Position numbers and translations under genes: made by a program
The notes under the pieces: model-generated
Database searches by the model: none
Seen by the model: the letters and a program-made list of their open reading frames with translations, nothing else
Told to the model about the DNA's origin: nothing
From: Echinarachnius parma
Lineage: Eukaryota > Echinodermata > Echinoidea > Clypeasteroida > Echinarachniidae
Direction: 5' to 3'
Assembly: GCA_037951105.1 (NCBI GenBank)
Contig: JBAMJV010004291.1
Coordinates: 1 to 64,000, forward strand
Length of the DNA stretch: 64,000 nt
Shown here: in pieces, positions 7,431-19,292 of the stretch
How the letters are laid out: each line of letters begins with the position of its first letter
How positions within the stretch are numbered: position 1 is the first letter of the stretch

Positions 7431-8157
7431 AACAAGTGTATTTTCCTCAGAGTTTGGTCTATAATTATTACTAAGAGAACATGCAAGCCTTTATATGCAT
7501 TAGTCTTATACATACAAAATAATACACATTGAAGACAAATATTGGAAGGTCTAAATACTGGGGGAAATATTTATTAAAACAAAAAAGAAAACTGACCAGA
7601 AAAAAAAATAAGCAACGAATAAAACAACCTTTTTTTTTGTTAGTGTCGGTTGCTCTAAGTAACTTGCGTTGGATCAATTGGAATCAACGCCGCAAATACG
7701 CGATGGTGATTGGTTCCCGGGAATGGCTTGTCGTGCAACGGGTCCCTTGTGCAATGTCAACAAACACGCAACACACACAACACAGTCATGCTAGGCGAAA
7801 AGAGACAAAACATTGCTGTACAAAAACATACTTTTCTCCAAATCTAGCGGTGGGTCAGCGAGTTCTCAACGGATTATTGAAGCCAAATAAATTGCGGATT
7901 CACACTCATTTTCAGTTTGAAATCCTAATGTAGAACTTTGTTGCTATTTTAGTGTAAATTTACGTAACTTTCGTCAGGTATTATGGCTTAAATCAGTTCA
8001 CAAATTAACGCTTAATTTCCTTTTTATTTCACTTTTTCTTTATGACATGTAATTTTGTGTTTATGAACGTGTTTTGCATATTTGTTTCATACACCTGTGT
8101 AAATTACAAGACTTGACGTGGGAAACTTAAACATTAATCGCCATTTGTAGAGCAAAT

Positions 8158-8188
8158 CGCGGTACACCACATCGTGTGGTGTACCGCG
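8158..8188. repeat. Perfect 14-bp inverted repeat with 3-nt loop
   Basis: CGCGGTACACCACA is followed by TCG and then its exact reverse complement. It lies about 0.7 kb upstream of the retrotransposon ORF and may be in that element's 5' untranslated region, as a hairpin or a dyad protein-binding site. Function is not known. Confidence 0.8.
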
Positions 8189-8881
8189 GTTGTGTGTGGA
8201 CGTGTTTTTGTGGTGCTCCCAAATTTGTGTTATTTGTTTTGGTTTCCGGGCGCATCATACATATATGTTTGGTATCAAAACGACGAGCTTGGATCTGTGA
8301 AGCCGACAATTCGCGTGTTTCCTGTATTCAATCGCGGACGGACGAGTTTTTAAGCGATTTGGGTAAAAAATTTGGATTTTTAGCGAAATATAAAAAAAAT
8401 CAACTTTGTTTTCTTCTGTGCGCTGCTTGATGCACCTGTTTTGACTACCCGGGCGCTATGCGCATGCTCGCGCAAAACTACCAACCAACCAACTGGAGCC
8501 AGCGGAGTTACCCGCGCCCATCACCAGGCAATTGGCGCAGAGTATTGCATCATGACGTCATGGAATATACTGATTAAAGGAATTGTTCAACTTTTGGATG
8601 ACATGAGACCTTATGGATTTGAAGGAAAATAAGTAACAACAAGCTTAACTACATCAACAACACTACTGCTGAATAACAAGTAAGAGCGTTCCTTTTACTT
8701 TATAGTTTATGATATACTCTGATATTATCTTTTATCATTGTTTGTATCATTATAATTTCTTAATCTGAGTCTTGAGGAGAGTGGATTGAATGAATTAAGT
8801 GTGGAGTATTCTGACGTACATGTATAGACTGTAGCCAAATGTCAATGATAGTATATGATTTGATTAATCGTATCCTTCATC
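8189..8881 (+). other. Region upstream of the retrotransposon ORF, possible 5' UTR
   Basis: There is no supported coding sequence. It is locally richer in CpG than the flanking DNA and contains several short ATG frames of 60-84 codons that look non-functional. The true 5' end of the element and its target-site duplication were not found, so the boundary is arbitrary. Confidence 0.3.
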
Positions 8882-11800
8882 ATGAACTCCACCATCGTCG
8901 GTAGATCTTCACGCATGTCGTGTCACTCCTGGGAGCTCTTAATAATCAAAGCAGCTCTGCTGATCACCATCGGCCTGCTGATCGTCATCATGAGGGCTGG
9001 AGATGTGGCAACGAATCCGGGCCCCCGACCTCCAAGGTACCCTTGCGGTGAATGTCAGAAAGCATGTTCGGATTATAGAGGTTCGAAAGCCAGTATCCTT
9101 TGTGAAGAGTGCAACACCTGGTATCATATAGACTGCGTCCATATTTCTGATGTCATATTCTCTTGTCTAGGAAGGTCTGATTTACCATGGGAGTGCGCCA
9201 AGTGTGGACTTCCTAACGTCTCATCCAGCCTTTTCGATTCTACCATTGATAGTGAAGACTTGAATCAGAGCAACAACAGTTCCGCAAGCAATCTAGAGGA
9301 TGATACAACCCATGGCCCACAAATTACTCATCAAACAAACAACATCTCTAATCTACGTACTCTCACCATCAACTTCCAGAGTATTTATGGTAAGAGAGAA
9401 GTGTTCTGGAGCCTTGTGGACGCCACCAAACCTGACATAATCTTTGGATGTGAAACGTGGCTGAAGCCAGACATCAATCAAGGTGAGATATTCCCCCCTG
9501 GCTTCAACGTCTACAGGAAAGACCGCAGAGATGGCTACGGCGGTGTCCTTCTCGGAGTAAGTTCCAATCTCGTCAGCCAGCAGATCCAGATCGATTCGGA
9601 CGTAGAACTTGTAGCAGCAAAAATTATTAATGAGAAAAAGGACATCATCATTGGTGCATTGTACCGCCCGCCAAGTTCTGACCAACTGTACATGGACAAT
9701 CTGACCCACCATATTGAACAGATTTCTGCCAACAACCAAGGTGTGCCAGTATGGATTGCCGGGGATGTGAATCTCCCAGACATCAATTGGGTCACTGATC
9801 AGATATCCGGCAACCAGTATCGACACAGCATCAGCGAAGCATTTCTGCAGATGCTGGCTCGTACAGGGATGGATCAGGTGGTTGACTTTCCGACTAGAAA
9901 CCAACGAACACTGGACGTCATCATCACCAACAGGCCGTCACTCTTAAACCGATGTGAAGGGATGCCAGGGTTGAGTGACCATGATGTCATCTTTGCAGAA
10001 TGGTCTATCTGTGCAGGAAGGAGGAAACCGGTCCGCCACAAAATCTACTTGTGGAATCGAGCTGATCTTGACAACATACGGCACGAAGTAGGACAATGGT
10101 CAGACAACTTCACATCTCTGCACTCAACATCAACGCCTGTCGAAATCCTTGCTGACAGTATTGAACGCCATCTACAGAGTACACTTGAAAATATGGTGCC
10201 CTCGAAAATGAGTTCTACGAGATGCAGTCAGCCATGGTTTAACACCAATACCAAGAGAATCTGCCGTAGGAAAGCAAGGGCTTACACCAAAGCCAAATTG
10301 ACCAATAGCGACCGAGACTGGAGGAGATTCAGGAAGCTGAAGAAGCAGGCGCAAACAGCTTGTCGGCAGGCCAGCGACAGCTACCTCCAAGACATCATCA
10401 CGAGCGAACATGGCGGGGGCAGAAGACTTGGGGCAATAGTCAAGGCCAAGCGATGCGACCAAACGGGCGTCGCTCCATTGAAGGAAGGAGACCAGATGTT
10501 TAGTGATCCGAAGTCAAAGGCTGACCTATTAAATAAGCAGTTCGCTTCTGTTTTTACCATCGACAACACATCAGCCTTGCCCGATCTTGGACCCTCCTCT
10601 CATCCGACAATGAATCAGATCCTCATCAACAGCAGAGGAATCGTCAAACTGCTCAAGAACTTAAACCCTCACAAGGCTTCGGGACCTGATGGGATTCCTG
10701 CCAGGCTCCTGAAAGAAACTGCAGAGGAAATTGCCCCAGCAATCACACTCCTCTACCAAGCCTCCCTGAACCAAGGTCGCGTACCCTCTGCCTGGAAAAA
10801 GGCCCTCATCGTACCCATCTTCAAGAAGGGGAGCAGATCGTCTCCGGCTAACTACAGACCCATCTCCCTGACAGCCATCCTGAGTAAGTTATGTGAGCAT
10901 GTTGTGCATAGTGCTATCATCAATCACCTAGAAGCACAGGAGATCCTCAGTGATGCACAACATGGATTTAGGAAGAGGAGATCCTGCGACACTCAACTAA
11001 TTCTTACGATCAATGACCTCGCCAAGGGTATCGATGATAAAGGTCAGACGGATCTGATCCTTCTCGACTTCGCCAAGGCCTTTGATAAAGTATCACATAG
11101 GCTGCTTCTCCACAAGATCCAGAACTACGGCGTTCGGGGCTCGACCTTGAAGTGGATAGAGGACTTCCTCAAGGACCGCATCCAACAAGTCATCGTGGAT
11201 GGCAAGTCCAGCAACACTGCCAAAGTCACGTCTGGCGTGCCTCAAGGCAGTGTCCTCGGGCCTCTCCTCTTCTTGGTCTTCATTAATGACCTGCCTAAAT
11301 GCGCGAAGCACTCAACACCTCGACTCTTCGCTGATGACTGCGCATTGTACAGACGAGTATCAACTGACAGGGACGCTGCACTACTGCAGGATGATCTGGA
11401 ATCTCTACAGAAGTGGGAGCGGACTTGGATGATGCAGTTCCATCCCTCGAAATGCCAAGTCATTCGCATCACTAAGAAAAGGCATCCCATCATTTTCCCC
11501 TACCAAGTACATGGAACCACCCTGGAAGTGGTGTCTTCTGCCAAGTATCTTGGTCTTCATGTTGATAGTCACCTAAACTTCAACCAACATGTCGACGTCA
11601 TCACAAAGAAAGCTAACTCTACCAGAGCTTTTCTCCAGCGCCACTCCAGCAACTCCAACCGGAAGATCAAAGAGGCGACCTACAAGACATACGTGAGACC
11701 AATAACGGAGTACGCAGCCTCCGTATGGGACCCCCACACACAAAGAAACATAAGAAAAGTAGAGCAGGTGCAACGGAACAGCGCCAGGTTCGTCACGAGC

Positions 11801-12133
11801 ACCTTCGACCGCAGAGCAAGTGTCACAGACCTTATGAACAGGCTCAAATGGCAATCCTTACAGAACAGGAGGCTACAGGGCCGACTAGCGATGCTCTACA
11901 AGATTCGATTTGGGCTAGTAGACGTACCCTGGAATGACCACCTTACCACACTAACAACAAGCACCAGAGGACATGGGAGTAGATTTTTCACCCCACAATG
12001 CAGCTCTCAAGTGTGCTCATCATCCTTCTTCCCTCGCACTATCAAGGACTGGAACGCGTTAAAAATTGACCCAGCAGCCTTCCCTTCACTCGATGCATTC
12101 AGAGCAGCAGCAGTGAGGGCCGCCTGCATCTAA
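8882..12133 (+). CDS. Intact non-LTR retrotransposon polyprotein (2A-like, PHD, APE endonuclease, reverse transcriptase)
   Basis: This single 1083-residue ORF should drive target-primed reverse transcription. Residues 19-36 are a hydrophobic, signal-anchor-like segment. It runs directly into G40-D-V-A-T-N-P-G-P48, a 2A-like ribosome-skipping motif (usual core D-V/I-E-x-N-P-G-P; here Ala replaces Glu). A C4HC3 PHD-type zinc finger follows (C55/C58, C74/C77, H82/C85, C105/C108). About 158-385 is an APE-type endonuclease with ETWL, YRPP, GDVNLP, TRNQRTLDVI and SDHD. About 580-880 is a reverse transcriptase with KASGPDGI, NYRPISL, DFAKAFDKVSH, GVPQGSVLGP and the catalytic FADDC (D818, D819). The C-terminal part has the YVRPxxEYAxxVWDPH thumb motif and FFPRTIKDWN. 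The domain order fits the CR1/L2 group; clade placement is inference. No stop or frameshift interrupts it, suggesting a young copy. Its codon use is visibly more GC-rich than the surroundings. Confidence 0.93.
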   Translation: MNSTIVGRSSRMSCHSWELLIIKAALLITIGLLIVIMRAGDVATNPGPRPPRYPCGECQKACSDYRGSKASILCEECNTWYHIDCVHISDVIFSCLGRSDLPWECAKCGLPNVSSSLFDSTIDSEDLNQSNNSSASNLEDDTTHGPQITHQTNNISNLRTLTINFQSIYGKREVFWSLVDATKPDIIFGCETWLKPDINQGEIFPPGFNVYRKDRRDGYGGVLLGVSSNLVSQQIQIDSDVELVAAKIINEKKDIIIGALYRPPSSDQLYMDNLTHHIEQISANNQGVPVWIAGDVNLPDINWVTDQISGNQYRHSISEAFLQMLARTGMDQVVDFPTRNQRTLDVIITNRPSLLNRCEGMPGLSDHDVIFAEWSICAGRRKPVRHKIYLWNRADLDNIRHEVGQWSDNFTSLHSTSTPVEILADSIERHLQSTLENMVPSKMSSTRCSQPWFNTNTKRICRRKARAYTKAKLTNSDRDWRRFRKLKKQAQTACRQASDSYLQDIITSEHGGGRRLGAIVKAKRCDQTGVAPLKEGDQMFSDPKSKADLLNKQFASVFTIDNTSALPDLGPSSHPTMNQILINSRGIVKLLKNLNPHKASGPDGIPARLLKETAEEIAPAITLLYQASLNQGRVPSAWKKALIVPIFKKGSRSSPANYRPISLTAILSKLCEHVVHSAIINHLEAQEILSDAQHGFRKRRSCDTQLILTINDLAKGIDDKGQTDLILLDFAKAFDKVSHRLLLHKIQNYGVRGSTLKWIEDFLKDRIQQVIVDGKSSNTAKVTSGVPQGSVLGPLLFLVFINDLPKCAKHSTPRLFADDCALYRRVSTDRDAALLQDDLESLQKWERTWMMQFHPSKCQVIRITKKRHPIIFPYQVHGTTLEVVSSAKYLGLHVDSHLNFNQHVDVITKKANSTRAFLQRHSSNSNRKIKEATYKTYVRPITEYAASVWDPHTQRNIRKVEQVQRNSARFVTSTFDRRASVTDLMNRLKWQSLQNRRLQGRLAMLYKIRFGLVDVPWNDHLTTLTTSTRGHGSRFFTPQCSSQVCSSSFFPRTIKDWNALKIDPAAFPSLDAFRAAAVRAACI
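9002..9025 (+). other. 2A-like ribosome-skipping motif at the ORF N-terminus
   Basis: It encodes D-V-A-T-N-P-G-P (residues 41-48), preceded by a hydrophobic run and an R-A-G. In active 2A sequences the glycyl-prolyl bond (here G47-P48) is not formed and translation restarts at the Pro. The otherwise conserved Glu two residues after Asp is Ala here, so activity may be reduced. If active, a 47-residue leader would be released from the PHD-endonuclease-RT protein. Confidence 0.75.
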
Positions 12134-12310
12134 ACGCCCACCCCCCCCCCCCCCCACGTTGTTTGTGTTTTATTGTGCTGTCGCGTCTCTGTTTTTGTTT
12201 TTGTTTTGTTTATTTTGTTTGCGTTCACTGTACTATACTGTATGTGCACCACACGCAGTGCGTAATCTTCAGTCATGAAGTCTGCACTACCAAGGAAGAA
12301 GAAGAAGAAT
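12134..12310 (+). mobile_element. Probable 3' UTR and simple-repeat tail of the retrotransposon
   Basis: After the TAA the sequence has a C-run (about 12140-12157), a T-rich stretch, and a short (GAA)n tail at about 12295-12309. Short tandem repeats at the 3' end are usual for CR1/L2-like elements. No target-site duplication was recognised, so the end is approximate. Confidence 0.5.
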
Positions 12311-12621
12311 TCATCGTGAATTAATTTTGGCCACTTGTGATTGAACTTCGTGGTGAAATTGTTGAGTTCACGTGAACGCGCGGAAATCCGTGCGTGTGCG
12401 CTGGCTACCCTTTTTAAGTACATGGCCTATGGGAGTGAAACCGCCGTGAGTTATGTAGCGTTGTGTATACACTACTAGTATACACGGGCGAAATACAGTA
12501 GTACAACGGCAGTGTTGGAGTCATAATGTTATGAGTGCGACACGTACGTACATTTCACCAATGCTGTGTGTACAATGTATGCAAATTTATAAATGTTAGT
12601 CATCCGACCAATCACACGTAA

Positions 12622-12992
12622 AGGGATGCCTGTAAATTGTCTAACTCCACGAAAATTACTTGGAGTTTCCTCGTTTCTCTTCTACCAAGTTGCTTAGCTT
12701 ATGGTAAGAGAATAATAAAATAGGTTTAGATTTTTTTCAAATGCCCCTTTAGTATGACAATATCTATCATTTAGCGCAAAAGCATTAATGAATGGTCATA
12801 AACCTCATAAACGTCATACAGTAATTTGTTGTAAAATCTGACGCATGTTTTCGCTTTTTTAACCAGGAAAGCAGTGATCTTTTTCAATGAAACTTTTACA
12901 CATCATTCGGACATATCTTACAATAATTTTGGTACAAGATTGAAGTCTCAAATGTCATTTTTGGCAATATCTGACACTTTACAGGTGCACCT
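12622..12992. mobile_element. MITE related to the AGTGATCC family (in copy A)
   Basis: The 371-bp element runs from AGGGATGCCTGTAAATTGTC to an imperfect inverted copy ending GACACTTTACAGGTGCACCT, followed by TTAA (left side GTAA). Interior phrases ('cttggagtttcctcgtttct', 'gcttatggtaagagaat', 'cccctttagtatgaca') match the elements at 54076 and 54512, so it is a diverged member of that family. Confidence 0.7.
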
Positions 12993-13325
12993 TTAATGTA
13001 GATATTATAATGTGTCTGCTTGATTTGCATAAGAACGAATGAGGTCGGAAGCGGCGCGAACCACCGACCCGTGGATGTTCTTGTACAGGCATACTGCTAT
13101 AATTCGTGTATGTAAATTCTTGATGATATCATATTATGTCTGCTTCATTCGCATAATATTATTGAGGTCGGGATATACAGAACCGTTACCACTGCTCTAC
13201 AGTCATACCATTATCAATATTACAATTGTAATATTATATCAATGTATGGCTCTGTCTTATTCATTGCATTGTCGCGTTGACGTGCAATATGATTCCAGTT
13301 CAGGCAATTAGTACTGTATTGTTAA

Positions 13326-13842
13326 AGGGATAGTTGAGTTTTGGTATAGAGGGCGCTACACAAAATACATTTTTTGTGAGATAATGAAAAACTGAGTGTC
13401 AAAATCGAAAGAGCATACAATTTTAATGACAGAATAAACTTTATTTGATCAAAATCGGTTCCGAAATGGCAAAAATATCCATAAAAATAACCATTTGTAA
13501 TACTTGTGGGGCCCCACAATTATTCGATAATTTTGAACCAGCCGTTAACATTTTAGAAAAATGCTTCCTCTATTCCAAAAATTACCAAATAGGTTTTTAA
13601 ATAGTTGTTGATTATCCCTCTATCTAATCACTATTTCAACAAAGAATTACATGCACAATATATTATTTCAAATGGTTGAAACCGTTGAGTGTTTAGAGAG
13701 CGCCCTCATGAGTTTTAACAGCTCTTTTTTTTAATGATAACAGGCTTTTTATTAAGTCATGTGTAATTTTGTGTTCCTTTCGAGCATGGTGGATTCAGTT
13801 TGACCAAAACTGTACTCTCTTTACCAGAACTCAACTATCCCT
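13326..13842. mobile_element. TTAA MITE, AGGGATAGTTGAG family (copy A, first)
   Basis: The 517-bp element has termini AGGGATAGTTGAGTT...ACTCAACTATCCCT. It is preceded by TTAA and followed by TTAT (one change). Five further copies lie at 14762, 17936, 19818, 27596 and 47400. It is non-coding; the 65-residue minus frame inside it is an artefact repeated in copy B. Confidence 0.85.
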
Positions 13843-14761
13843 TTATTGTGTGGTTCAATCGCAAAATCTATTTTTTTGCTATCAGGCATACTGCCATAAT
13901 TATTATATTGTAAATTGTTGGTGATATCATATGTCTGCTTCATTCGCATAATATAGGTTGAGCCTTGAGCACCTTAAAAAAGGTGGAATTGGCGCATTAG
14001 AATACCTCTTTATAGTATTATTTGCCATATCCCTCTCAACGCCAGTCAATACTGTTAAAATATAACAGTTTATGTTGTACACTCAAGGTATTAAGTAAAT
14101 TGGGGCCTGATCAGATGAACCTTAATATCAAAGGCAAATGACAAGTAAACAACAAAGTAATCAACAACCTAACAACTGATCATGGTAAATATTAACGGTT
14201 AGTATACTTATGACACGGTTCGTGTTATCGTTGAAAACGTGACTACCCTTAATGTCACTATCGTAATAAGCAGTAATATTTTAAGTATATTGCATGTATA
14301 AATAAGTATCATATTATATTAGGATTGTATTATACGCATATCGTAGTAAAGTCAGTATTAATATTAGTATTGGTATTGTGGTGTTTTGTGGTGGTGCATG
14401 TATGTCGTTCTGATTGTGGTTGTAGTGACTTTGAGCTAGCAGGTTAATATATATATGCTTTCATGGCATGGGAAATACATGTTGTGTCGTATGATACATG
14501 ATGGTAAACTGATTAGCGTAAACAGATATATTATATGTGTCCAGCTCTGGTACACTCATCATTTGTAGCCATTGGCTTATAAATAATATGCATCAAAAAC
14601 ACCTAGTTAGCATTATTTGAAGTAATGATAGCAATGTCAGATATTTTTATTTTGTAATGAATTCGGTCAATATAAATGTATGTGATCAGAATCTTTACTT
14701 TAAGATTTTGAGCGTCAATGTTTGTGGCAAAACCTACAAGGTCAGCAAAATATGAACTTAA

Positions 14762-15281
14762 AGGGATAGTTGAGTTTTGATATAGAGGGCGCTACACAAA
14801 ATAATTTTGTTGTGAGATAAAGAGAAACTGAGTGTCAAATTCGAAAGAGCATAATATTTTAATGACAGAATAAACTTTATTTGATTAAAATCGGTTCAGA
14901 AATGCATGAAATATCCATAATTATAACCATTTGTAATAAATGTGGGGCCCCACAAGTATTCAATAATTTTGAACCAGCCGTTAAAATTCGTTTTAAAATG
15001 CTTCCTCTTTTCAAAAATTTTCAAAAGAGGTTTTGAGATAGATGTTGATTATCTCTCTATCTAATCACTGTTTCAACAAAACATCACATGCACAATATTT
15101 TATTTAAAATGGTTTAAACCGATGAGTGTTTAGAGAGCGCCCTCTTGAGTTTGAACGGCTCTTTTTTAATGATCACAGGCTTTTTACTTAGTAATTTGTA
15201 ATGTTGTATTCCTTTCGAGCATGGAACTGTATTCCTTTCGAGCATGGAACTGTACTCTCTTTACCAGAACTCAACTATCCC
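14762..15281. mobile_element. TTAA MITE, AGGGATAGTTGAG family (copy A, second)
   Basis: It has the same termini as the element at 13326, with TTAA on both sides. Near the right end the phrase 'gtattcctttcgagcatgga' is tandemly repeated once, a small local rearrangement not shared by its counterpart in copy B. Confidence 0.85.
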
Positions 15282-17060: not shown

Positions 17061-17227
17061 AGTTATGTAGCGTTGTGTATACACTATAAACGGGCGAAAT
17101 ACAGTAGTACAACGGCAGTGTTGGAGTCATAATGTTATGAGTGCGACACGTACGTACATTTCACCAATGCTGTGTGTACAATGTATGCAAATTTATAAAT
17201 GTTAGTCATTCGACCAATCACACGTAA

Positions 17228-17598
17228 AGGGATGCCTGTAAATTGTCTAACTCCACGAAATTTACTTGGAGTTTCCTCGTTTCTCTTCTACCAAGCTGCT
17301 TAGCTAATGGTAAGAGAATAATAAAATAGGTTTAGATTTTTATCAAATGCCCCTTTAGTATGACAATATCTATCATTTAGCTCAAAAGATTTAATGAACG
17401 GTCATAAACCTCATAGACGTCATACAGTAATTTGTTGTAAAATCTGACGCATGTTTTCGCTTTTTTATCCAGGAAAGCAGTGTTCTTTTTCAATGAAACT
17501 TTTACACATCATTCGGACATATCTTACAATAATTTTGGTACAAGATTGAAGTCTCAAATGTCATTTTTGGCAATATCTGACACTTTACAGGTGCACCT
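17228..17598. mobile_element. MITE related to the AGTGATCC family (in copy B)
   Basis: This is the duplicate of 12622-12992, with the same length and termini. It therefore predates the segmental duplication. Confidence 0.7.
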
Positions 17599-17935
17599 TT
17601 AATGTAGATATTATAATGTGTCTGCTTGATTTGCATAAGAACGAATGAGGTCGGAAGCGGCGCGAACCACCGACCCGTGGATGTTCTTGTACAGGCATAC
17701 TGCTATAATTCGTGTATTATGTAAATTCTTGATGATATCATATTATGTCTGCTTCATTCGCATAATATATTGAGGTCGGGATACATACAGAACCGTTACC
17801 ACTGCTCTACAGTCATACCATTATCAATATTACAATTGTAATATTATATCAATGTATGGCTCTGTCTTATTCATTGCATTGTCGCGTTGACGTGCAATAT
17901 TATTCCAGTTCAGGCAATTAGTATTGTATTGTTAA

Positions 17936-18431
17936 AGGGATAGTTGAGTTTTGGTATAGAGGGCGCTACACAAAATACATTTTTTGTGAGATAATGAAAA
18001 ACTGAGTGTCAAAATCGAAAGAGCATACAATTTTAATGACAGAATAAACTTTATTTGATCAAAATCGGTTCCGAAATGGCTAAAATATCCATAAAAATAA
18101 CCATTTGTAATACTTGTGGGGCCCCACAATTATTCGATAATTTTGAACCAGCCGTTAACATTTTAGAAAAATGCTTCCTCTATTCCAAAAATTACAAAAT
18201 AGGTTTTTAAATAGTTGTTGATTATCCCTCTATCTAATCACTATTTCAACAAAGAATTACATGCACAATATATTATTTCAAATGGTTGAAACCGTTGAGT
18301 GTTTAGAGAGCGCCCTCATGAGTTTTAAACAGGCTTTTTATTAAGTCATGTGTAATTTTGTGTTCCTTTCGAGCATGGTGGATTCAGTTTGACCAAAACT
18401 GTACTCTCTTTACCAGAACTCAACTATCCCT
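17936..18431. mobile_element. TTAA MITE, AGGGATAGTTGAG family (copy B, first)
   Basis: Duplicate of 13326-13842 with an internal deletion of roughly 20 bp near its right end. Confidence 0.85.
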
Positions 18432-19292
18432 TTATTGTGTGGTTCAATCGCAAAATCTATTTTTTTGCTATCAGGCATACTGCCATAATTATTATATTGT
18501 AAATTGTTGGTGATATCATATGTCTGCTTCATTCGCATAATATAGGTTGAGCCTTGAGCACCTTAAAAAAGGTGGAATTGGCGCATTAGAATACATCTTT
18601 ATAGTATTATTTGCCATATCCCTCTCAACGCCAGTCAATACTGTTAAAATATAACAGTTTATGTTGTACACTGAAGGTATTAAGTAAATTGGGGCCTGAT
18701 CAGATGAACCTTAATATCAAAGGCAAATGACAAGTAAACAAAAAAGTAATCAACAACCTAACAACTGATCATGGTAAATATTAACGGTTAGTATACTTAT
18801 GACACGGTTCGTGTAATCGTTGAAAACGTGACTACCCTTAATGTCACTATCGTAATAAGCAGTAATATTTTAAGTATATTGCATGTATAAATAAGTATCA
18901 TATTATATTAGGATTGTATTATACGCATATCGTAGTACAGTCAGTATTAATATTAGTATTGGTAGTGTGGTGTTTTGTGGTGGTGCATGTATGTCGTTGT
19001 GATTGTGGTTGTAGTGACTTTGAGCTAGCAGGTTAATATATATATGCTTTCATGGCATGGGAAATACATGTTGTGTCGTATGATACATGATGGTAAACTG
19101 ATTAGCGTAAACAGATATATTACATGTGTCCAGCTCTGGTACACTCATCATTTGTAGCCATTGGCTTATAAATAATATGCATCAAAAACACCTAGTTAGC
19201 ATTATTTTAAGTAATGATAGCAATGTCAGATATTTTTATTTTGTAATGAATTCGGTCAATGTAAATGCATGTGATCAGAATCTTTACTTTAA

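Follow-up and report, generated by a model that had tools for sequence, protein, structure and literature searches.

Does a hydrophobic leader at the head of a retrotransposon protein serve to recode translation, to direct the product to membranes, or both? The question is posed by a LINE in the window, by which we mean the whole stretch of 64,000 nucleotides of Echinarachnius parma DNA analysed here. A preliminary description had pointed, at 8882-9215, to a hydrophobic run that passes into D-V-A-T-N-P-G-P ahead of a PHD finger, and the sequence does read as claimed. Two fates had been predicted from this layout: release of a 47-residue leader from a free replication protein, or a read-through product sent to membranes, with the change from Glu to Ala in the motif as a possible tuner of their ratio.

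The element and its leader

The retrotransposon ORF is intact, as first described: a single frame of 1083 aa (8882-12133, forward strand) inside a LINE at 8174-12309, which is longer than the feature originally noted. It starts with the ATG at 8882, the same frame being closed by a TGA 7 codons earlier, and encodes a PHD finger, an endonuclease (EN) and a reverse transcriptase (RT). The PHD finger (9044-9205, forward strand) is Pygopus-like, as judged by Pfam, by alignment of its ligands and by a match to a solved structure; the Pfam match falls under Pfam's cut-off (0.0021, 18.5 against 24 bits), the best solved-structure match is Pygopus (1.4e-5), and all eight C4HC3 ligands (C55, C58, C74, C77, H82, C85, C105 and C108) are invariant in 20 aligned sequences, those of the window and of 19 chosen relatives. 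The APE-type endonuclease (9650-9991, forward strand) matches Pfam Exo_endo_phos_2 (3.3e-9), and the RT (10823-11563, forward strand), with a FADD motif, is recognized by Pfam (4.6e-32) and by alignment. Ligands and Pfam matches thus bear out the claim that a C4HC3 finger, then EN and RT, lie downstream of the motif. As all 20 aligned sequences also match an exo_endo_phos-type endonuclease followed by RVT_1 in one ORF, we assign the element to the CR1/L2 group of LINEs, an assignment made by architecture and not by reference tree. The layout of one ORF with N-terminal PHD, EN and RT is also that of LINE type IIIA (CR1 subgroup 6, L2 subgroup 4), in the parts of the source that define it; these parts differ in describing no 2A leader, the term 'virus-like 2A' does not occur in the main text, and the phrase 'APE-type non-LTR retrotransposons' occurs once in the full text (PMC4120745). 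A protein from a 2,382-base ENA contig (P0092) is 99% identical to the last 641 aa (residues 443-1083, window 10208-12130) and stops short of the leader; at this identity it belongs to the same family, and perhaps to the same species, in another public data set.

The ends of this non-LTR retrotransposon copy (8174-12309, forward strand; 5′ UTR, one ORF, 3′ UTR and GAA tail) are the limits of its match to a second insertion, on contig C8278, with 99.42% identity over 4140 aligned bases, and the flanks of the two copies are unrelated by sequence comparison. The 5′ UTR spans 708 nt from the element start to the ATG (8174-8881, forward strand; in-frame stop at 8861). At the other end, both copies finish in a (GAA)5 tail (12295-12309, forward strand), which the copy on contig C5573 also carries. 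The family is dispersed, with copies on C8278, C5573, C9306 and C12238 that have a common 3′ end, lack terminal repeats and differ in their 5′ ends. A target-site duplication was sought at the window insertion and none was found with the settings used, and an Rfam scan of the window gave no match over gathering scores. The 5′ flank of the window copy (8155-8191) repeats, in inverted orientation, the bases with which the element begins (CGCGGTACACCACA ... TGTGGTGTACCGCG); this repeat is absent at the C8278 copy and has the appearance of a 5′ end that snapped back during integration. Just 3′ of the LINE, a segment at 12449-14038 recurs about 4.6 kb on at 17061-18627, with about 96-100% identity in the pieces reported, and a third, less similar partial copy lies at about 14611-15224.

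The leader comprises 47 residues ending in ...IMRAGDVATNPG, followed by P48. Residues 41-48, directly after the hydrophobic run, form a candidate 2A/StopGo core, DVATNPGP (9002-9025, forward strand), with a predicted break between Gly47 and Pro48; we number 2A positions so that this core is p12-p19. The run is interrupted by K23, and its unbroken part is residues 24-37 (14 aa), after which come R38-A39-G40. No other part of the ORF reaches its peak (mean Kyte-Doolittle value of 2.7 over 15 aa), a level attained within the first 40 aa by 16 of 20,000 shuffles, and the chance expectation for a D[VI]..NPGP octapeptide is 5e-5 per ORF of the same composition. A 2A sequence is recognized by NPGP with D (or G, C or N) at p12, by E (rarely H) at p14 and by about 20 aa of upstream context. 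D41 and N45-P48 supply the first of these, and the context is there as well (Leu/Ile-rich p3-p8, I at p7, R at p9, A-G at p10-p11); p14 is Ala, in all five copies of the family. Judged by its sequence, then, the leader fits the description of a 2A-like leader in an APE-type LINE with a predicted 47-aa release product.

The 2A-like core among relatives and in the host genome

Protein searches yielded 120 different proteins, drawn from the 82 found in one search and the best 120 of 125 in another; a search with residues 1-115 gave 4 matches, all already in this set. Anchoring on the PHD ligands picked 45 of the 121 sequences (query included), and the 76 others, which are fragments or proteins without a finger by the pattern used, stand outside the motif counts; NPGP is visible in several of them. 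A 2A-like octapeptide precedes the finger in 43 of the 45 anchored proteins, or 43 of the 44 whose sequence reaches this place. The remaining two are P0053, in which the 20 residues ahead of the finger contain no motif, and the Amphiura protein P0016, which starts after the motif's place and begins MPRPPKYPCGEC. On these sequences, the 2A-like motif before the PHD finger is a trait of the clade. Named relatives among the matches listed come from Amphiura filiformis (brittle star), Pinctada imbricata (pearl oyster), Glandiceps talaboti (acorn worm) and Oryzias melastigma (fish). Relatives were also sought in viral contigs, where 31 pattern matches in DNA included none.

Within the 43 motif-bearing proteins, P17, G18 and P19 are each invariant (43/43), p12 is D in 39 and p16 is N in 41; upstream, 40 have I or L at p7, 33 have A or S at p10 and 23 have G at p11. 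Mean pairwise identity is 0.73 in the core, 0.56 in RT and 0.42 in EN. Residues 19-37, at 0.16, are the least conserved larger segment, and Leu-richness beside the core persists. Position 14 is E in 34 proteins, H in 4, Q in 2, I in 1, M in 1 and A in 1, the window's. In a tree of the 43, built from the finger and part of the endonuclease of these database relatives, the window stands beside an E-bearing Amphiura protein (support 91/94), which makes a change to Ala on the branch of the window itself the simplest reading. One relative, P0011, reads GDVQPHPGP, with Gln at p14 together with His at p16; His at p16 is described in a survey of viral sequences, in the part that concerns this position, as a rare active variant (PMC12846837).

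We also searched the host genome (1.2 Gb in 14,790 contigs). The protein search found at least 150 places (652 candidates, 150 scored), and all 150 were examined. An octapeptide over the score threshold is present at 141 of the 150 listed places, of which 134 end in PGP and one (L136) is probably chance. The other nine comprise fragments, a decayed motif (L016), a changed finger with the motif (L051), copies that the pattern left unresolved, and L144, L145 and L146, a related PHD LINE family in which Met-Pro stands where the 2A core would be (...AYIIMPRKPKYPCGIC), an arrangement that would result if the family had lost its leader and acquired a new start at this point. At the 141 places p14 is E in 94, Q in 22, A in 9, H in 8, N in 5, S in 2 and a stop in 1. 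Counted by clusters with an intact copy, it is E in 13, A in 2, H in 2, Q in 2 and N in 1, so that 7 of 20 are non-E; these clusters are partly dependent (DVET and one DVEL group are split, and the two H clusters are near to each other and to the N cluster), and the DVAL and DCQL clusters have one intact sequence each. Within clusters p14 is nearly constant, with one deviation in 84 distinct sequences. The DVQVNPGP family is a 20-copy PHD LINE (L095, L113, L117-L121, L123-L130, L132, L135, L137, L138 and L153) with Gln at p14 in 20 of 20 and several open frames of 1,161-1,194 aa. A second Ala family, DVALNPGP (L066, L083 and L139), is not close to the window family, and a decayed Ala motif, DVATNPDP (L014), sits in the DVET cluster. 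This DVET cluster, with E at p14, is the nearest to the window family in this genome (74% over the core and the 42 following residues). At p7, 22 own-genome clusters have L in 14, I in 5 and V, A and N in 1 each. A further LINE family (L043, L049, L054, L062 and L063) has DINLNPGP and Trp at p11, both positions being unusual. Chance or artefact as the source of the motif is rejected by its clade-wide presence, the shuffles and the own-genome copies.

Constraint on the leader

The window family occupies five places in the host genome, the same number as found by DNA search (at least five); a sixth, weak DNA match belongs to another cluster. All five copies read LITIGLLIVIMRAGDVATNPGPR, with the core DVATNPGP in each, and the p14 codon is GCA in every one while other codons of the stretch carry silent changes. 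The comparison of other copies that had been proposed thus finds Ala kept in five of five, and a single-copy E-to-A mutation is rejected. The hydrophobic run fared unevenly in the same comparison. Residues 27-40 (LITIGLLIVIMRAG; 8960-9001, forward strand), the conserved Leu/Ile-rich part at p-2 to p11, are identical in the five copies, so that residues 27-38 of the run stand without an amino-acid change. Residues 1-26 (8882-8959, forward strand), which include the start of the run at 19-26, evolve freely and differ from the copy on C9306, where Asp and Pro lie within residues 19-26 and the frame is nevertheless open.

To compare selection along the ORF we set the window copy against C9306, which keeps an open frame. 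In residues 1-26 there are 9 nonsynonymous and 3 synonymous changes plus a 3-base gap. Residues 27-48 differ by 0 nonsynonymous and 3 synonymous changes, against a neutral expectation of about 5.9 nonsynonymous, and the contrast between the two segments has a Fisher p of 0.044; few independent events stand behind this value, since three of the five copies belong to a single subfamily. Nonsynonymous and synonymous changes number 1 and 4 in the PHD finger (49-108), 5 and 1 in the linker (109-158), 8 and 16 in EN and 13 and 25 in RT. The copies on C5573 and C12238, with broken frames, show the same pattern of differences, and the C8278 copy is too close to the window copy to inform on selection. 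It had been held that a motif and run decaying faster than RT would speak against a working leader; no such decay is seen in the motif and its adjacent residues, which change no more than RT, and it is the distal part of the run (19-26) that does decay.

The same gradient is seen when 14 families are pooled (at least 3 copies, and at least 2 distinct sequences without a stop downstream of a point 26 codons before the core): pN/pS is 0.91 at p-28 to p-15, then 0.40, 0.23 and, in the core, 0.13, against 0.28 in the PHD finger, values that are rough, since a change shared by several copies entered the count with each of them and bins that matched badly were left out. Two families taken alone lack the drop: in DVET, p-2 to p11 carries 5 nonsynonymous and 0 synonymous changes and the core 2 and 0, and in DINL p-2 to p11 carries 10 and 5. 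Taken together, the 0/3 and 9/3 differences and the pN/pS gradient are better explained by selection on about 22 aa, as long as a 2A/StopGo element, than by selection on a whole signal peptide, and the replacement by Ala itself appears, from these comparisons, to have been kept by natural selection. The anatomy of the leader, its conservation, the pattern of selection and the fixation of Ala in the copies found are observed.

Skipping, targeting and position 14

How might such a leader work? We consider it probable that the LINE ORF opens with a 2A (StopGo) leader that releases 47 aa, that any membrane product is a by-product, and that Ala allows at least partial skipping; from the sequence we infer both the occurrence and efficiency of skipping and the destinations of the products. 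When Gly47 is added, residues of about 27-47 would occupy the exit tunnel, where the Leu/Ile-rich stretch would pack on the tunnel wall and the catalytic centre would be distorted by D41, N45, P46 and G47. Release of the 47-aa leader would follow, and translation would resume at Pro48 to yield a free PHD-EN-RT protein destined for the nucleus. The core-adjacent part of the run would then be kept mainly because skipping needs it. Since the run would lie some 10-20 residues from the catalytic centre, within the tunnel, the decision to skip would presumably fall before a signal could be read outside. Where skipping failed, a fused product with a possible signal or anchor run would result, and a minor membrane-bound product is likely, though not as a selected trait; Ala at position 14, as a fixed family state, would be compatible with at least partial skipping. 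Viral L-rich StopGo sequences (motifs 2 and 6) share with the window a Leu-rich hexapeptide, (A/S/C)G and then D(V/I), and in the structural part of that work p7 of F2A wedges between tunnel bases, its Ala mutant falling to 34%; they differ in being viral and in having E at position 14, with H the sole alternative flagged (PMC12846837).

Does the hydrophobic run act as a signal as well? Of 42 leaders, 14 contain a signal-like 15-mer (mean hydropathy of at least 2), as do 0.1% of 1720 control stretches, so that it is far commoner than chance yet no family rule. Among own-genome clusters it is found in 5 of the 20 that could be scored, three of the five being pieces of one DVET group; in the window family, as judged by hydrophobicity, 4 of 5 copies reach the threshold and C9306 stands at 1.98. 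Hydrophobicity is uniform only beside the core, where p2-p9 are Leu-rich, and its average reaches background further upstream. Even so, the segment that lies 16-22 residues ahead of the core is hydrophobic in 9 of 41 leaders, compared with 2.6% of random 7-mers, and this excess is beyond what StopGo alone explains.

Selected dual targeting would have the leader kept as both recoding element and signal, with Ala lowering skipping so that a useful share of the enzyme reaches membranes. An uncharged run of 14 aa near the N-terminus would suit this, as would the 4 of 5 family copies above. Leaders shorter than 50 aa are also more often signal-like (11/16 against 3/26 longer ones, p 4e-4 before kinship is allowed for), but the association is unsupported once kinship is counted (6 independent pairs, median sign-test p of 1, low power). 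Residues 1-26 are unconserved, C9306 carries D and P inside the run, and a signal-like stretch is confined to the minority of leaders and clusters given above. The signal function foreseen in the preliminary description is not supported as a conserved trait. We know of no use for a translocated EN-RT, and count this against dual targeting too. In SpNLR2A6, a sea-urchin NLR leader, Arg and Met lie just upstream, as in the window leader. The sections on these NLR leaders, with mutants at R11, M12, L13 and L14, describe an N-terminal hydrophobic leader that likewise ends in a 2A motif, skips at about 80% and otherwise enters the secretory route, the wild type being about 85% cell-associated and 15% in the medium; in function this is an exact precedent for dual targeting, and it differs in that it concerns a cellular immune gene, a 26-aa leader and Glu at position 14, with activity and secretion measured (PMC4981915). 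On balance we regard selected dual targeting in the LINE as unlikely, while a membrane fate of unskipped protein, possible by analogy with the NLRs, looks like a by-product.

Could Ala instead have abolished skipping in the window family, leaving a relic whose protein acts as one fusion? In the comparisons of natural sequences, p14 in RNA viruses is almost exclusively E, H being the sole alternative flagged and found active, and E14Q gives 56% or 26% (PMC12846837); in the experiments on duck hepatitis A virus 2A, the E-to-A change weakened but did not abolish skipping (PMC6249498). Skipping may accordingly be poor in the window family, which is also small, with at least 5 places at the DNA level; by the same viral example, an Ala core is plausible as a weaker but working one, and the weakening could equally serve dual targeting. 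A relic is hard to square with a 22-aa stretch that lacks any amino-acid change at about 12% synonymous divergence, or with the non-E clusters, among them the 20-copy family with frames of up to 1,194 aa, and we think it improbable. Least likely, in our estimate, is that the stretch is kept for a stall 47 codons in, through which the protein would more readily locate its own mRNA or be made more slowly, release being secondary. The same tunnel contacts are said, where the viral mechanism is discussed, to cause pausing before release (PMC12846837), and the far-upstream leader, at a pN/pS of 0.91 and of variable length, is nearly unconstrained, so that whatever the released peptide does seems not to depend on its sequence; but P17-G18-P19 is invariant in the 43 proteins and core pN/pS is lowest, and a mere pause would not obviously need P19. 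The evidence thus continues to favour a StopGo leader that releases 47 aa.

Part of this picture is familiar. Odon et al. in 2013 (Mol Biol Evol) are said to have found 2A-like sequences in APE-type animal LINEs and to have shown recoding for several. The canonical motif is D(V/I)ExNPGP, from which the window family departs with Ala at position 14. Both 2A in such LINEs (Odon 2013) and, from the relevant sections of the NLR work, the dual 2A/signal fate in sea urchins (PMC4981915) are already known; what is added here is a selection test within one genome and family-wide departures from Glu, with no claim that the Ala variant is unreported.

Since A, Q, H and N at position 14 are constant in open-frame LINE families, searches with the canonical D(V/I)ExNPGP can miss real candidates. 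These families are naturally selected variants for probing the contact between Glu and the tunnel, and a constraint that extends over no more than about 22 residues ahead of the Gly-Pro break suggests a simple criterion for telling a recoding leader from a signal peptide. More speculatively, and only as a long shot, the A, Q, H and N states in this genome may form a natural allelic series that tunes the share of free nuclear against leader-fused, membrane-prone enzyme; if each state does set its own skipping rate, a single residue would tune how the enzyme is split.
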